Source: a virus
Direction: 5' to 3' (one strand)
Length of the DNA stretch: 39,405 nucleotides
Virus record (IMG/VR): IMGVR_UViG_3300048056_000050
Coordinates: 1-39,405 of that record
Made by a program: the position numbers and the translations under genes. Positions 5,874 through 28,044 of the stretch are shown here, piece after piece (position 1 is the first letter of the stretch; each line of letters begins with the position of its first letter). The notes beneath the pieces were generated by a model. It was not told where the DNA came from, did not search any database, and saw only the letters and a list, made by a program, of their open reading frames with translations.

Positions 5874-6575
5874 GTGGGAATGAAAAAATTGATTCTCACA
5901 AAAGGTTATTTGGCGCTTGTCGACGATGATGTTTATGAACGAATTTTGAAATTGAATCGGCCTTGGTTTGCCAGGGTTTCAAGAGATTCGATTTATGCGG
6001 CAAGAGACGAAACGTATTCCAAGAAAAATCGGAAACGGGTTTATTTGCATCGGTGGATCATGGGATTGCCGCCGGGCCGAACGCCGGTTGTCGATCACAT
6101 AAACCGCGACACGCTAGACAACCGGCGGGAAAATCTTCGGTTGGTTACGACATCCGAAAACAATCGGAACAGTGGTCTTTCGATTTCCAACACAAGCGGT
6201 TTTATTGGTGTTGCGGTTGTGAACGATTCGGGAAATTGGCGGGCTTATGCCAGTTCAAATAACAAACAAATCAACATCGGTGTTTGGCCGACAAAAGAGT
6301 TGGCGGCGGTTGGTAGAGATCTTTTCGTGAAAGAAAGGTTCCCGACTTCGGTTTTGAATTTCCCGGATGGAAAATTTCCACACACGCCGGAAGAAGTTGA
6401 ATCTTCCAAAATCGCACGGCCCATAAATGAAACCCCGGGGATCCGTTTCAAGGCCAATGGTTATGAAGTAGAAAAACGCGTTGACGGCAATCGCGTTTAT
6501 GTCGGACGATTCGACACGTTGGAAGAAGCCAAGTTGGCGCAACGGAACTTTCTAAAAACCAAGGGGAAAAAATGA
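5874..6575 (+). CDS. Free-standing HNH homing endonuclease with AP2 DNA-binding repeats (233 aa)
   Basis: The core HRWIMGLPPG...VVDHINRDTLDNRRENL (about residues 59-92) is an HNH nuclease fold with the catalytic DH, followed by TSENNRN. Two AP2-like DNA-binding segments follow: GFIGVAV...GNWRAYAS..IGVW (about 108-140) and PGIRF...GYEVEKR..VYVGRF (about 187-217). Such enzymes nick or cut a specific site and spread their own gene. It interrupts the head operon without breaking either neighbour, so it is not an intron or intein product. GTG 5874 has AGG 7 bp upstream; ATG 5880 is an alternative. Five of 23 arginines use AGA/AGG, somewhat more than in the portal or capsid gene, weakly suggesting separate origin. 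Confidence 0.85.
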   Translation: MGMKKLILTKGYLALVDDDVYERILKLNRPWFARVSRDSIYAARDETYSKKNRKRVYLHRWIMGLPPGRTPVVDHINRDTLDNRRENLRLVTTSENNRNSGLSISNTSGFIGVAVVNDSGNWRAYASSNNKQINIGVWPTKELAAVGRDLFVKERFPTSVLNFPDGKFPHTPEEVESSKIARPINETPGIRFKANGYEVEKRVDGNRVYVGRFDTLEEAKLAQRNFLKTKGKK

Positions 6576-21551: not shown

Positions 21552-23762
21552 ATGAGCAATGCCCTACTTTCAAGCAAAGTTTCGATTCAAGAAGAAGAGC
21601 CAAGAACCCGAACGATCGACGCGGTCCAAACTTCGATCGCTGCGATGGTCGGCATTGCCGAACGCGGGCCGATCGGTGTTGCAACGCTGGTAACATCGTT
21701 TGATGAATACCGTGACATTTTCGGCGGTTATACAACCGACGCTGAAATGACAACGGCGGCCGAAGGGTTTTTTGACAACGAAGGCCAGTTTTTGTATGTG
21801 ACCCGGACCGTTCACTTTGCGGATCCGTCGAATCCAGCAACGAAGGTTTCTTTGAAGGCCACGATCAATTTGTTGACGGCGGCCGGTGGACCAACGGCGG
21901 GTTCTGTAACTTCCAACAACACGGAAACTTTCTTGTTGGCGGATGGTCAAACCGTTGTTGTCGATGTCGATACCGGGGGCAATGCAACGGCGACGTTCAA
22001 CGCAGCGGCGGCGGCTTTGACGGCAAGCAATACGGAAACCTACGCGTTGGCGAACGGTGAAACTTTGACGTTCCGAATCAACGGCGGCGCATTGCAAACG
22101 GTGACTTTCACGACGGCGGCTTTTGCCAACATCGCGTTGGCAACGGCCCTTGAAGTTTCGGCGGTTATCAACGCGGGTTCGGTCGGCATTCAAGCCGATG
22201 TTGATGCCGGTGCATCGCGAATTACAACCGATCGCCAAGGAACCGGGGCTTCAATTGAAATCGTCGGTGGTACGGCCCAAGCGACTTTGGGCTTTGCGAT
22301 CGGTACTGTGAACGGAACCGGTGACGTTGCCGACATCACAGCGGTAACAGCGGCTGAAGCCAAGACGGTCATCGAAGCCGATGTTCCCGGTTGTACCGTC
22401 AACGATCTTTCGGGCGCGGTTCAAATTGTTTCAAACACAACCGGTCTTTCTTCTTCGATCCAAGTTGATGCGGCTTCGACTGCCGACGGGATTTTTGGTT
22501 TCGACAATGCTTTGCATGTTGGAACCACGGGGGCGGCGGTTCCGACACTTCAAGTTGATGGTTTGTGGGATGGTGCTTACGCCAACCAATTTCAACTTCA
22601 GGTCGCGGCGGCGACTTCGGGTGAAAGCGATCGGTTCAATCTGACGCTTTTGCAAGGTGGTCTGATTGCCGAAATCTGGCCAAACGTTTCAATGGATGAC
22701 AACGCCGAACGATACGTTGAAGACGTTGTGAATTTGAGCAACGAAAAATCTAAATTGATTTCGGTTGTGGATCTCGATGTGTCTTCGGCACAACGTCCGG
22801 CAAACGGAATTTCCGCAAACATGACGGGCGGCGATGACGGCTTGACCGGTTTGGTCGATAACGATTTTATCGGTGACAGCACTGGAAAAACGGGCATCCG
22901 TGCGTTGGACACAGTACAAGACGTTTCGATCTTGGGTGTTCCCGGCCAAGCAACCGGGCCCATTCAAAACGCGATGATCAACTATTGTGAAAGCACGCGA
23001 AACGGTTCGATGTTTTCCGTTTTGGATTCCCCCGCCGGTGCGTCGGCAACTGACATCATCACATATGTTGAAACAACGGCTTTGCTTTTGGGATTGTCCG
23101 AATTCGGCGCCATGTATTGGCCACGGGTCAAAGTTCTGAACCCACTTCGGGGCGTCTTTGGGAACGTCGACAATATTGTTGTTGCGCCTTCGGGTCACAT
23201 CATGGGCGTTTATGCACGAACCGACGCGGCCCGTCCCGGTGGGATTTATGATCCACCCGCAGGAATCGAAGAAGGCCAATTGTTGAAAATTGTCGGTTTT
23301 GAGACTGACGAAGTTTTTGACGAAGCCCGTCGCGATCTCGTTTTCCCAAAGCGGATCAACATTTTGACATCGTTCACCGGTGCGCCACGACACATCGACG
23401 GTTCCCGTTGTTTGAAGTCGAACGGAAATTTCCCCTTCGTTGCCCAAAGGCGCGGGGCGATCTTCATCGAACAATCGATCAAGAACGGAACAGAATTCGC
23501 GCGAAACAAGAACAACACCGACAAACTTCGGCGCGAGGTTGAACGGACAATTCGAGGGTTCTTGAAAATCCAAATGAACAACAACGCGTTTGCTTCAAAC
23601 GATCCTGATTTGGCTTTCTTTGTCGACTTCTCGGAAAAGATTCAAACGCCGGCCAAAAACCGAATGGATGGCCGGGTTGGTCTTGCATTCAACGAACCGG
23701 CGGAATTCATTGTCATTCGTTTTTCGAAAGACACGCGGGCAATTGAACAAGCGGCGGCCTAG
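21552..23762 (+). CDS. Contractile tail sheath protein with inserted beta domains (736 aa)
   Basis: Sheath proteins polymerise around the tube and contract to drive it through the host envelope. N-terminal residues 1-90 (TSIAAMVGIAERGPIGVATL; SFDEYRDIFGGY; FFDNEGQFLYVTR) and the C-terminal domain from about 600 (FPKRINILTSFTGAPRHIDG; LRREVERTIRGFLKIQ) are typical. Between them residues about 115-345 form an insertion of repeated beta modules: a short copy near 117-155 (TETFLLADGQTVVVDVD) and a full one near 156-250 (TETYALANGETLTFRING to IEIVGGTAQATLGF). Insertions here usually decorate the outer sheath. The same module occurs in the protein at 37309. Length is above T4 gp18 (659 aa). Confidence 0.85.
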   Translation: MSNALLSSKVSIQEEEPRTRTIDAVQTSIAAMVGIAERGPIGVATLVTSFDEYRDIFGGYTTDAEMTTAAEGFFDNEGQFLYVTRTVHFADPSNPATKVSLKATINLLTAAGGPTAGSVTSNNTETFLLADGQTVVVDVDTGGNATATFNAAAAALTASNTETYALANGETLTFRINGGALQTVTFTTAAFANIALATALEVSAVINAGSVGIQADVDAGASRITTDRQGTGASIEIVGGTAQATLGFAIGTVNGTGDVADITAVTAAEAKTVIEADVPGCTVNDLSGAVQIVSNTTGLSSSIQVDAASTADGIFGFDNALHVGTTGAAVPTLQVDGLWDGAYANQFQLQVAAATSGESDRFNLTLLQGGLIAEIWPNVSMDDNAERYVEDVVNLSNEKSKLISVVDLDVSSAQRPANGISANMTGGDDGLTGLVDNDFIGDSTGKTGIRALDTVQDVSILGVPGQATGPIQNAMINYCESTRNGSMFSVLDSPAGASATDIITYVETTALLLGLSEFGAMYWPRVKVLNPLRGVFGNVDNIVVAPSGHIMGVYARTDAARPGGIYDPPAGIEEGQLLKIVGFETDEVFDEARRDLVFPKRINILTSFTGAPRHIDGSRCLKSNGNFPFVAQRRGAIFIEQSIKNGTEFARNKNNTDKLRREVERTIRGFLKIQMNNNAFASNDPDLAFFVDFSEKIQTPAKNRMDGRVGLAFNEPAEFIVIRFSKDTRAIEQAAA
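21912..22075 (+). repeat. Diverged tandem duplication inside the sheath insertion
   Basis: The segments at about 21916-21963 and 22026-22073 encode NTETFLLADGQTVVVDV and NTETYALANGETLTFRI. They share a common frame and many base matches (ACGGAAAC; GCG(G/A)A(T/C)GGT), pointing to duplication of a beta module followed by divergence. Confidence 0.6.
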
Positions 23763-23804: not shown

Positions 23805-24272
23805 ATGGCAGTCGTAGGAACACCAAGAGTCTTTCAAAAGAAGTTCGCTTTTCAGGTCGAAATTGACGGCATTCGTTCAGCGGCGTTCACCCGATGTTCT
23901 GAGTTGTCGGCCGAAATCGGCAAAGTTGAACAGCGGGAAGGCGGGAAACTCATTCCCGACAAAAGCCCGGGGTTGGTCAACATTACCGATGTGACGCTTG
24001 AACGCGGCGTTGCCAACGGCGATAGCGATCTTTACAATTGGTGGCTTGATGTCGTCAAAGTATCGGCCGGCGGCGGTACGGGCAAAGTCACGCCGTTTTA
24101 CAAACGCCAAGTCGAAATTCTTCAACTTGACCGCGACGCTTCTGTTTTGAAGCGTTGGGTTTTGGAAGGCGCGTGGCCGACAAAATGCGTTGTTGGCGAA
24201 TGGGACAACGATGCCGACGAAAACGTTGTTGAAAGCCTCGTTTTGACATTTGACACGTTCGATTTGGTGTAA
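23805..24272 (+). CDS. Tail tube protein, T4 gp19 family (155 aa)
   Basis: PRVFQKKFAFQVEIDGIRSA, FTRCSELSAEIGKVEQREGG, VTLERGVANGDSDLYNWW and the end RWVLEGAWPTKCVVGEWDND with ESLVLTFDTFDLV match the T4 gp19-like tube family: 'F.V.idG...a.F...sgl..e......eGG', 'vtL.rG......ly.W', '.A.P.k......n......iE...L..d.f.'. Its rings form the rigid inner tube. Length (155) is normal. It follows the sheath after 42 bp with CGGAGT upstream, the standard order. Confidence 0.9.
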   Translation: MAVVGTPRVFQKKFAFQVEIDGIRSAAFTRCSELSAEIGKVEQREGGKLIPDKSPGLVNITDVTLERGVANGDSDLYNWWLDVVKVSAGGGTGKVTPFYKRQVEILQLDRDASVLKRWVLEGAWPTKCVVGEWDNDADENVVESLVLTFDTFDLV

Positions 24273-24347: not shown

Positions 24348-25184
24348 ATGAATTGTATTTTGCCAAGCGGGCTTCGGGGCGTAGTCCGCAAATTGACAGG
24401 GTCGGAAATCAATCTTTTCACCAATCGGGATGTCGTCAAAAGTGGCGATCTCTTTGACCGAATCCTTCGGTCTTGTTGGGTTGAAACGACGGATTCCGGC
24501 CCTTATTCTTTTGCCGAAACCGGGAAAAGTTCGCCGGATTGGAAGCGGGTTTTGGTCGCAGATCGAACAATGGCTTTGATCGCGATCCGCATTGCGACTT
24601 ATGGAAGTTCATACGTTTTCAACGTTCAGTGTTTGAACAGCCAAAGTTGTGGTGAGCGTTTCGAATGGGAGATCGACCTTTCTTCGGATCTCGATGTTTT
24701 CGATCTTCCCGAATCTTCAATTGATAAAATTCGGGATGACGACAACCGTTTTCTTTGTTCGGTTGACGGTCATGAAATTGTTTTCAAATTGACAGACGGC
24801 GCCGGTGAAACGTTGGCCGGCCGTCGGCTTGCCAAGAACCGCAACGACATTATGTCGGTTGGTTTGGCTTCGAAGATTGTCAGTGTTGACGACAAAGAAT
24901 TGAATCACGTTCGGGCCGAAGAATTCGTGAAGGCATTGGGGGCCGATTCACAACTTGAACTTCTTCAGAGATTTGAAGAAGTCGATGGCGGCGTTGAAAC
25001 TATGATCGAAATTGAATGTCCTAGCTGTTACACAAAGCAGGATAAAAGCCTCCCTTTAGGGGAAGAAGGCTTTTGGATTCCTTCGTCACGCAAGCAACGG
25101 AAGAAGATCCGGGAGACGACGCGGAAGACCCAAAAGCGGAAGATGTTTCAGGATCCAAACAACCAAGGAAACGAAGAGGATTGA
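24348..25184 (+). CDS. Tail assembly chaperone / T4 gp26-like baseplate hub family protein (278 aa)
   Basis: ILPSGLRGVVRKLTGSEINL followed by about 60 residues and VADRTMALIAIRIATYGSSY, then a Cys-bearing FNVQCLNSQSCGERFEWEIDL, fits the family that includes T4 gp26 and the small proteins preceding tape measures in gp19-type phages. A second CPSC pair near residue 226 may complete a zinc site. In this position such proteins act as tape-measure chaperones. After KSLPLGEEGFWIPSS the tail becomes basic and disordered (KQRKKIRETTRKTQKRK). The gene overlaps the next by 112 bp; a CCCTTTA heptamer in its frame (25052-25058) could send ribosomes into that frame. Confidence 0.65.
   Translation: MNCILPSGLRGVVRKLTGSEINLFTNRDVVKSGDLFDRILRSCWVETTDSGPYSFAETGKSSPDWKRVLVADRTMALIAIRIATYGSSYVFNVQCLNSQSCGERFEWEIDLSSDLDVFDLPESSIDKIRDDDNRFLCSVDGHEIVFKLTDGAGETLAGRRLAKNRNDIMSVGLASKIVSVDDKELNHVRAEEFVKALGADSQLELLQRFEEVDGGVETMIEIECPSCYTKQDKSLPLGEEGFWIPSSRKQRKKIRETTRKTQKRKMFQDPNNQGNEED
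25044..25074 (+). promoter_or_regulatory. Candidate -1 programmed frameshift signal (slippery C CCT TTA in a hairpin)
   Basis: Read in the upstream gene's frame, 25052-25058 is C-CCT-TTA, a perfect X-XXY-YYZ slippery heptamer. Shifting by -1 gives CCC-TTT and enters the frame of the 25073 ORF, which is open from 25046. AAAAGCCT (25044-25051) pairs with AGGCTTTT (25067-25074), placing the heptamer in the loop. A looser downstream stem (25075-25110) is also possible. The fusion would have 351 residues. Confidence 0.5.
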
Positions 25185-25402
25185 TTGCGGGACTTTTTCC
25201 AACCTACGAAGAACGATGGTTGGAAAAAGTCACGGCCGAACTTTGCTATCACAGACATGGCGGTTCGGGTCTTTCGTTCAGTCGTTCCGAGATTCGCGAA
25301 ATGCCGATCGATGAGATAGAATTCTATCTAGAATGGCTTGAAGATATGAGACGGCGAGAAGCCGAAGCCATGAAGAAGGCGAATCAAACCGCGAGAAGAT
25401 GA
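25073..25402 (+). CDS. Second tail chaperone frame (109 aa if independent; likely -1 fusion partner)
   Basis: This frame overlaps the end of the previous gene and stops 14 bp before the tape measure, exactly where the 'GT' part of phage tail chaperones lies. It opens acidic (EEDPGDDAEDPKAEDVSG), then basic (KQPRKRRG), then helical with YEERWLEKVTAELCYHRHGG and the charged helix IEFYLEWLEDMRRREAEAMK. It can be reached by a -1 slip at 25052-25058. Alternatively TTG 25073 can start it, with AGGGGA 9 bp upstream. Size and layout fit a tape-measure-binding segment; sequence family not recognised. Confidence 0.65.
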   Translation: MDSFVTQATEEDPGDDAEDPKAEDVSGSKQPRKRRGLIAGLFPTYEERWLEKVTAELCYHRHGGSGLSFSRSEIREMPIDEIEFYLEWLEDMRRREAEAMKKANQTARR

Positions 25403-25416
25403 ACGGATAAAAACGA

Positions 25417-28044
25417 ATGGCAATGAACAACTTTGGTTTGGGTTTAACGTTCACGGCGCGAAACCTTGCCAGTGGTGCCATTCGACGTTTGAAGGGTGAG
25501 GTTACTGGGTTGGGGGCCGCTTCGGGTGTTGCCGGGGCGGCTATGTCGGCCGGGTTTGGTGTTGCGGCGGCGGGGATCGCGCCTTTGGTTGTTGGTGTGA
25601 CTGGTTTGGCGGCTTCTTTGAGTTTGGCCAATGCCGCCGGTGAATTCGAAACCGGTATTCAGAAAGTCGCCAACATTTCGGGGGCAACGGCCGAAGAACT
25701 TGGGCTTCTTCGGGATGCTGCGATCGAAGCTGGTCTGAACACGCAATTTTCGCCGGATGAGGCGACCGAAGGTTTGGCCAACTTGGCGGCCCAAGGTTTC
25801 AACGCTTCGAATTCGATCACGATGCTTGATTCTTCTTTGGCGTTGGCGGCCGGCGGTCAAATTTCGATCGGTCAGGCAACCGCAACAAGCGCGGCGGCTT
25901 TGCGTGTTTTCAGTTTGGCGGCCGATGAAGGCGGCATGGCAACCGACAAGCTTTTGAAAATTACGAATTTGACGGCGTTACAGGCCGGCGATCTCGAAAT
26001 TGCTTTGGGTACGGTTGCGCGTGGCGCGAGTATTACGAAACAAAGCCTTGATGAAATGTTGATTTCGATGGGCCTTGTGAAAAACACGGGTGTTGATGCT
26101 TCCGTGGCCGCTTCTTCGGTTTCATCGGCGTTGCTTTTCGCTGCGCAAAATGCAAAAAAGTTTTCCGGTATCGGTGTTTCGTTGACCGACAACAACGGAG
26201 AATTCAGAAGCTTTTTGGACATTGTCGGGGACACGTCCAAGGAATTGGACAAGGTCGAAAACGCGGCCGAACGGGTGGCGATGACGACCGATCTTTTCGG
26301 ACGGTTCGGAACAAATGCTTTCGCTGGAATTTCGAACCAATTGAAAGAAATGGTCAAACGCGAACCCGACATCAAGACCATTGAAGACGCGGTTGCCCAT
26401 TTGCGTTTTGAGATGGCAAGCGCCGAGGGAACGGCGGTCGAATTTTCAAATCGGTTGTTGGACACGTTCGGCGGTCAAAAGAAGATCTTGCAAGGGGCGA
26501 TGCAAACAATGGCGGTTCTTTTGGGTGAGCCATTCGCCAAGGTTTTCAAGCCGGTTATTTTCGCGATCGCTCAATCGCTTTCGGCGGTTGCGCGTTTGAT
26601 CAATTCAATGCCGGAAGAATTCAAAGTTGCCGTTGCCGCGTTTGTGGTTTTGTCTTCGGCGATCTTGGCGGCTTCGGGTGCGTTGACGGTGTTCATCGGG
26701 TTGGGAATGGTTGTGGGTGCGTTCTTGTTCCCGTTGCTTGTCAAAGGTGCAACGATTTTCGCGTTGGTCTTGTTCCCGTTGGTTGGTGGGATCTTGGCAA
26801 TGGCGGCGGCGTTCGGCGCTCTTTACATTGCGGCGCGTGAAAACGTTGGTGGGTTGGGCGACTTCATTTCGGGATTGGTGGACAAGACAAAGTTGGCTTT
26901 CAACGCAATTCGGCAATTGTTTTCGGATGGCTTTGTTTCTGGCAAGACTGCCGAAGCATTGTTGGATCCGGCGAACAAAGGCGTTTTGAATTTCGTTCGA
27001 ACGATTTTTCAGGTTGGAAAGCGGATCGTCGCATTCGTTCAAGGGATCGGTGCGGGGTTTGCCGAATCGTTTGGTTCCGTTGCGCCAAAGGTTGAAGGGT
27101 TGGTTGACGCCTTCAAAGACGTTTTGGAAATTTTGGGGATTACCGACAGCACGGCCGGAAGTCTTGGCGGTATGGACAAATTCGCCGCGAGTGGTGCGGC
27201 GGTTGGTTTGTTCTTGGTCGATGTTTTTGGTTTTGTGGTCGACGGGTTGAAGCGAGGAATCAAGTTCATCTATGGCTTCATTCAAGGGGCCAAGGACGCG
27301 ATCAAATCGTTTGTCGCGTTTGACGTGTTGAAGTCGCGGGTTTCTTTGGCGGCCGACGAAATCAAAAACCTGTTCATTCAATTGGGCTTTGGGTCTTCAG
27401 AAGCCGGCGGCGACATCCAATCGATCGGGTCGATCTTCGGAAAAGTCTTCGGTTTTATGATGGGTGTCGGAACCGAATTTGTGATCGCTTTTGTCAACGG
27501 GATCCGGTTTGCGATCAACGTGTTTCAAGCATTCATGGATATGCCGCGAGTGTTTGCGAAAATTTGGATCAGTGTCGCCACGACAATTGAAAATGTCATT
27601 GCGTCAATTTTGAATTACTTCGATGAGGCTTTGATGGCGATCGGTGAGTTGGCCGCCAAGATTCCGGTCGGGTTCCGAACGGGGGCCGTCGAATCTGTGA
27701 TCGACATGGGGATCGGTGCAAATCAGCGCATCAACCAAAGGTTGGTTGAGACGGGCCAAAGGGACCGTGAGCGTGATTCAAGGCTTACGGCCTTGGATGA
27801 TACGGCAAGCGTCGAACAAGCCCGCATTGGGGCCGCTGGGAACGATCAAAGCATGGTTGCGGGACACTTGGCGAATTTGGCCGGGAGTGTTCGCGCAATG
27901 CAAAAATCCCAACAGCAAAAAGACGACAAACCGTTGGTTGTTAATTTGATCGCTGACGCTGAAAAGATCGCTACGGTCGTAACTTCCCAAAATAGGCGTC
28001 GTGCGTCACAAGCATTCGTTCCGGTTCCGGCCGCCGTCGAATAA
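25417..28044 (+). CDS. Tail tape measure protein (875 aa)
   Basis: The N-terminal 330 residues match the phage tail tape measure family: a glycine/alanine hydrophobic start, then ANAAGEFETGIQKVANISGA, AIEAGLNTQFSPDEATEGL, NLAAQGF, and later LLFAAQNAKKFSGIGV and DLFGRFGTNAF. Hydrophobic segments at about 402-480 (FKVAVAAFVVLSSAILAASG; ALVLFPLVGGILAMAAAFGA) are usual in tape measures and may enter the host membrane. The rest is helical. The protein sets tail length; at the usual 0.15 nm per residue a tail near 130 nm is expected. It has no visible peptidase or lysozyme motif. Confidence 0.9.
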   Translation: MAMNNFGLGLTFTARNLASGAIRRLKGEVTGLGAASGVAGAAMSAGFGVAAAGIAPLVVGVTGLAASLSLANAAGEFETGIQKVANISGATAEELGLLRDAAIEAGLNTQFSPDEATEGLANLAAQGFNASNSITMLDSSLALAAGGQISIGQATATSAAALRVFSLAADEGGMATDKLLKITNLTALQAGDLEIALGTVARGASITKQSLDEMLISMGLVKNTGVDASVAASSVSSALLFAAQNAKKFSGIGVSLTDNNGEFRSFLDIVGDTSKELDKVENAAERVAMTTDLFGRFGTNAFAGISNQLKEMVKREPDIKTIEDAVAHLRFEMASAEGTAVEFSNRLLDTFGGQKKILQGAMQTMAVLLGEPFAKVFKPVIFAIAQSLSAVARLINSMPEEFKVAVAAFVVLSSAILAASGALTVFIGLGMVVGAFLFPLLVKGATIFALVLFPLVGGILAMAAAFGALYIAARENVGGLGDFISGLVDKTKLAFNAIRQLFSDGFVSGKTAEALLDPANKGVLNFVRTIFQVGKRIVAFVQGIGAGFAESFGSVAPKVEGLVDAFKDVLEILGITDSTAGSLGGMDKFAASGAAVGLFLVDVFGFVVDGLKRGIKFIYGFIQGAKDAIKSFVAFDVLKSRVSLAADEIKNLFIQLGFGSSEAGGDIQSIGSIFGKVFGFMMGVGTEFVIAFVNGIRFAINVFQAFMDMPRVFAKIWISVATTIENVIASILNYFDEALMAIGELAAKIPVGFRTGAVESVIDMGIGANQRINQRLVETGQRDRERDSRLTALDDTASVEQARIGAAGNDQSMVAGHLANLAGSVRAMQKSQQQKDDKPLVVNLIADAEKIATVVTSQNRRRASQAFVPVPAAVE

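Follow-up and report, generated by a model that had tools for sequence, protein, structure and literature searches.

A -1 frameshift in the tail chaperone genes of phages has long been established, with T4 noted as the exception (PMC5009743). Frameshift-made chaperones encoded next to the tape measure gene are well known from lambda G/GT and many others, as a first-pass annotation of the DNA described here had noted. Chaperone genes of the T4-like kind were identified by Vladimirov et al. (2022; Virology 566:9-15), as that work is cited in PMC12846349, and going by this citation the two-gene arrangement of T4 was probably already recognised there. Poly-T slip signals are known in the TAC-N genes of T4-like phages (PMC12846349). 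Haloviruses of the HF1 group have two chaperone frames between the tube and tape measure genes, and a +1 shift has been proposed for them at TTT-CGC (PMC7230728). In the literature searched, which most subscription papers lay outside, we found no report of a CCCTTTN slip site or of a +1/-1 switch among gp26-like genes.

The window, by which we mean the whole stretch of DNA that was analysed, is the complete IMG/VR record IMGVR_UViG_3300048056_000050 from an uncultivated virus (39,405 bases). Pfam and PHROG profile matches place the sheath gene, the tube gene, the chaperone locus and the tape measure gene in this order along it, and other genes encode portal, HK97-type capsid, neck and baseplate proteins. 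Together these head and tail genes indicate a contractile-tailed phage. The features of the tail region are as follows.

21552..23762, + strand: tail sheath protein (phrog_23 tail sheath, E 3.5e-33; phrog_15814, E 7e-201)
23805..24272, + strand: tail tube protein, gp19-like (PF06841, E 8.7e-27), the presumed partner of the C-domain
24348..25184, + strand: predicted short form (TAC-N), a gp26-like tail assembly chaperone of 278 aa in the 0 frame with an ATG start (PF12322, phrog_150, predicted fold)
25046..25402, + strand: -1 frame, which from 25058 would encode the C-terminal extension of the long form (TAC-NC; open frame, conserved C-domain phrog_20255)
25052..25058, + strand: slippery heptamer C CCT TTA, candidate -1 frameshift site (58 of 61 loci share CCCTTTN at these codons)
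25184..25402, + strand: conserved C-domain proper, LIAGLFP...ELCYHRHGGSGLSFSRSEIREMPIDEIEFYLEWLE (alignment of 61 sequences; helical model)
25417..28044, + strand: tape measure protein (PF10145, E 1.3e-22; phrog_1533, E 6.4e-38), the presumed client of the chaperones

The sheath protein has 736 aa and matches phrog_15814 over its full length; this family is listed as of unknown function, even though the protein has matches to tail sheath families as well. Adjoining the portal gene, positions 1640-2341 of the window encode a Matrixin-like metalloprotease (PF00413, E 6e-08), which is unexpected in a phage packaging region. An HNH_3 protein with a weak AP2-like match, probably a homing endonuclease, is encoded within the head gene cluster (5874-6575).

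The chaperone locus consists of two overlapping frames directly 5' of the tape measure gene; the second stops at 25402, and the tape measure begins at 25417. The -1 frame is open from 25046 to 25402, and the overlap amounts to 112 bases when counted from a TTG at 25073 to the 0-frame stop. CCCTTTA at 25052-25058 lies in phase as C CCT TTA, and no other X XXY YYZ site of the gp26-like frame falls within the open part of the -1 frame. A shift at this site would join 237 codons up to 25058 to 114 further codons, giving a fusion of 351 aa. In the overlap, the open frame, the phase of the heptamer and the length of the fusion, our count agrees with the first-pass annotation.

From the pattern of conservation described below, we consider it highly likely that programmed -1 ribosomal frameshifting lets a single chaperone gene of this contractile-tailed phage yield two proteins. 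Most ribosomes would stay in frame over 24348-25184 and make the short gp26-like chaperone. At C CCU UUA a minority would move back by one base and read CCC UUU in place of CCU UUA; carrying on in the -1 frame, they would make the long form, which ends in a helical domain. If the two forms act as those of lambda G/GT do, the short one may coat the product of the adjacent downstream tape measure gene and the long one may recruit tube subunits. In a large and mostly uncultivated set of contractile-tailed phages, what now stands as a "baseplate hub" and a small orphan gene would become one recoded chaperone gene, and CCCTTTN gives annotation tools a slip site to look for.

Relatives were gathered by alignment-based scans of viral contigs and by one scan of bacterial genomes. 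Used as the sole query, the second frame matched no viral contig or phage; alignments of two or more sequences did retrieve relatives. With the window included, 69 distinct loci carry both parts, and clustering of near-copies left 61, which share kinship, so that counts on them are not counts of independent events. The gp26-like proteins of the clustered loci are 23-48% identical to that of the window, and the closest relative (L002) has 52% identity. The phrog_20255 C-domain was present in all of the first nine loci. The pattern used for finding C-domains lies downstream of the heptamer and does not fix the frame; the C profile takes in a few residues of the heptamer's -1 reading. Without exception, the second domain of these 69 loci lies in the -1 frame (68 scored automatically). 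The remaining locus, L011, was read by hand and has CCCTTTC followed by the -1 frame; its gp26-like frame (774-1715) is broken upstream of the slip site, by an assembly error or a real indel. The first-pass annotation had named relatives with separated frames and no slippery site as what would count against a frameshift. The outcome across these loci was the opposite, with the frameshift arrangement kept.

Conservation of the heptamer, also proposed there as a check, is strong. At the homologous Pro and Phe/Leu codons 58 of the 61 loci have CCCTTTN (47 CCCTTTC, 4 CCCTTTT, 3 CCCTTTG, and 4 CCCTTTA, namely the window, L054, L075 and L108). The other three have a substitute canonical site a few codons downstream, T TTT TTC in two and A AAT TTT in one. 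In the tree, the three relocated sites fall at separate places inside a well-supported -1 clade (100/99), so lost slip sites were apparently replaced. CCCTTT is absent from L066, L070, L071 and L114, where A AAT TTT or T TTT TTC occurs near the frame end as an apparent relocation.

The conservation lies in synonymous choices. The Pro codon at the heptamer is CCT in 58/58 cases, compared with 43 of the 550 other Pro codons of these genes, and the Leu codon just before it is CTC in 52/52. Synonymous codon choice alone predicts a slippery heptamer in 2.9 of the 61 loci, and all 61 have one; for the window, given the encoded amino acids and the codon use of the gene, the chance of such a heptamer at this site is about 0.01. 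Between the heptamer and the 0-frame stop the -1 frame contains a stop in none of the 61 loci (27.1 expected). By codon rules, CCCTTTC should be an almost ideal tandem site, with Pro and Phe tRNAs able to read both frames. The CCCTTTA of the window would re-pair less well, with Leu-tRNA moving from UUA to UUU where Phe-tRNA moves from UUC to UUU at CCCTTTC. The long form could also arise by transcriptional slippage at the heptamer, which contains two three-base runs, and two relatives have a six-T run in its place. This explanation is scarcely credible, as the X XXY YYZ codon phase is preserved in every case; to our knowledge, three-base runs are also too short for transcriptional slippage.

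A second route to the C-domain is separate initiation, with the following candidate start.

25073..25075, + strand: TTG, an unsupported alternative start for the second frame (start absent in 35 of 61 loci)

On this account the second gene would be translated from the TTG, with AGGGGA (25058-25063) as its ribosome binding site, and would be coupled to the first gene, translation of which opens a hairpin over the site. Both motifs are present where the first-pass annotation had placed them, and the predicted hairpin covers both. The TTG, which that annotation had offered as the rival explanation, does not persist among relatives. The closest relative, with CCCTTTC at the same place and its second domain likewise in the -1 frame, has CTG at that position and no ATG, GTG or TTG ahead of the conserved domain. 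TTT TGG, the Phe-Trp codons of the first frame, yields the window's TTG when seen from the other frame. The stretch from the heptamer to the conserved domain lacks ATG, GTG and TTG altogether in 35 of the 61 loci, which rules out an independent start as the mechanism shared by these loci. A coupled start also leaves the invariant CCT and CTC codons and the replacement slip sites unexplained. We therefore regard separate translation as very unlikely, with at most a minor contribution from an independent start at the window's TTG with its SD-like AGGGGA, and frameshifting as the preferred reading.

Two elements of the window were considered as stimulators of frameshifting.

25044..25074, + strand: hairpin around the heptamer (a real inverted repeat, not supported as functional)
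25039..25042, + strand: SD-like AGGA, possible weak stimulator (ends 9 nt before the heptamer)

The 8-bp stem reported earlier is a perfect inverted repeat (arms 25044-25051 and 25067-25074). The claim that the heptamer lies in its loop holds in that the arms enclose it; the loop is not open, since the predicted fold pairs CCCT with the following AGGGG. Compared with shuffled sequences, the window's fold is unremarkable (z -1.5 over 121 nt, z -1.3 for the local hairpin). As a stimulator the hairpin was rejected, with no enrichment over shuffles (relatives mean z -0.05), and its 5' arm would sit within the ribosome at the moment of slippage. A downstream stimulatory structure was likewise rejected (window z 0.04, relatives mean z -0.55 against shuffles). 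With no structural stimulator found, the efficiency of frameshifting may be low.

The 9 nt between AGGA and the heptamer resemble the spacing in dnaX. An SD core ends 5-14 nt upstream of the heptamer in 39 of the 61 loci. The count of SD motifs is no higher than in synonymous shuffles (33 vs 30.7), so amino-acid choice would explain it. The mean anti-SD energy (-5.23 vs -4.33 in shuffles) is below that of all 200 shuffles, and this pairing energy weakly suggests a role as stimulator.

The 0-frame protein matches PF12322 (T4_baseplate; E 2.5e-08, 34.3 bits against a curated cut-off of 24.5) and phrog_150 (E 1.7e-10). Its AlphaFold model has a pLDDT of 93. Residues 1-85 of the model align with the HK97 tail assembly chaperone 2ob9 (VIA-align Z 6.1, rmsd 3.0 over 73 residues; next chain Z 3.7), a likeness of only moderate strength; Foldseek alone gave E 0.7 and probability 0.72 for the same comparison. 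A profile search of the PDB by sequence gave no match to solved structures for either protein. The model of the C-part is helical (pLDDT at least 85 from residue 51 onward), and it has no convincing structure match in the PDB, which does not make the fold new. Ten residues are invariant across 59 aligned first proteins, and four of these are cysteines.

24630..25028, + strand: four cysteines of the 0-frame protein, C95, C101, C224 and C227 (invariant in 59 sequences)

Residues 91-238 have weak structural matches to the zinc domains of NrdR and ZPR1 (Z 2.5-2.8), and the four-cysteine set is a probable metal site.

The family names point to the baseplate. Frameshifting could be real and the 0-frame product nevertheless a true baseplate hub component, with the long form as its structural variant and not a chaperone. 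PF12322, phrog_150 and many phage annotations carry baseplate or baseplate hub labels. However, a T4 review counts gp26 and gp51 among the hub assembly chaperones (PMC3004832, which also cites genetics that put gp26 in the hub), and the tape measure neighbourhood and the HK97 chaperone fold of the model indicate a chaperone. A structural hub role is thus improbable. Because the predicted fold is that of the HK97 chaperone and PF12322 includes these T4 proteins, we read the locus as TAC-N and TAC-NC, and the "gp26 baseplate hub" appears better named a tail assembly chaperone. The first-pass annotation had called a gp26-like first partner unusual; given the predicted fold, it is the expected kind of partner.

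In the wider gp26-like family the downstream domain can lie in the +1 frame, as it does in SP-15, LIS04, GXN1, Mel-JY01, immuto and BRock and in most contigs found with the SP-15 type. Among these contigs, 18 have a C-domain score above 10; the domain is in the +1 frame in 17 of them, L150 being the single -1 case. Loci of the +1 and of the -1 group were collected separately, with queries of their own kind. The +1-frame loci (L013, L014, L015, L113, L115, L116 and most of L118-L149) mostly have the domain after TTT CGN (EFFRP). A recognisable Phe pair occurs in 30 of 31 clustered loci; its last codon before the shift is TTT in 28 of them, and CGN comes next in 21. The exact TTT CGN motif is missing from a few +1 loci, SP-15 and LIS04 among them. 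Profile comparison shows the +1 and -1 domains to be homologous (probability 94-95%). In the tree, a huge phage with a -1 TTTTTTC falls among the +1 rows, with weaker support than the -1 clade. The second chaperone domain of SP-15, LIS04 and GXN1 is annotated in part or not at all.

T4 gp26 and gp51 both match PF12322 (E 8.8e-64 and 3.9e-52) and are paralogues (L112:3803-5229). T4 gp51 consists of a gp26-like part and a C-terminal extension of roughly 47 aa. The extension has a weak likeness to the frameshifted domain (score 21.5; the best of 100 shuffles reached 14.8), suggesting that T4 has two genes in place of recoding. Taken together, it is reasonably probable that one homologous family keeps a short and a long protein throughout and has changed how the long one is produced: by -1 shifts at C CCU UUN (the clade of the window), by -1 shifts at relocated sites, by +1 shifts mostly at UUU CGN (GXN1, BRock and many uncultivated relatives), or from two genes in T4. 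The wider comparison offers a test case in which the direction of recoding switches or a second gene takes over while both products are kept.

Among described systems, HF1 was tried as a gp26 relative and rejected, as its first protein has no match to the gp26-like profile. Its TTT-CGC is the motif found here in distant gp26-like relatives, and its proposed shift is +1, unlike the -1 shift of the window. The first protein of the window is in the same Pfam family as T4 gp26 and gp51, but these are encoded by two separate genes on opposite strands, whereas the window has a single gene with a -1 overlap. Compared with HK97 chaperone 2ob9, approximately residues 91-237 of the window protein have no counterpart. 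The TAC loci of Vandenendeviridae and Andersonviridae (phage Adele, PMC12846349), compared by description, are similar in being myovirus TAC-N/TAC-NC genes with a conserved -1 frameshift, although their slip motif is GTTTTT. Unlike lambda G/GT, the window combines a contractile tail, a gp26-like first protein with a four-cysteine domain in place of the small gpG, and a CCCTTTN site. It shares with lambda G/GT the overlapping frames just 5' of the tape measure gene, the X XXY YYZ site for a -1 slip and, as predicted, a short and a long product (PMC5009743). On these likenesses in sequence and arrangement, the locus very probably belongs with the known frameshifted tail assembly chaperones of the lambda G/GT kind.
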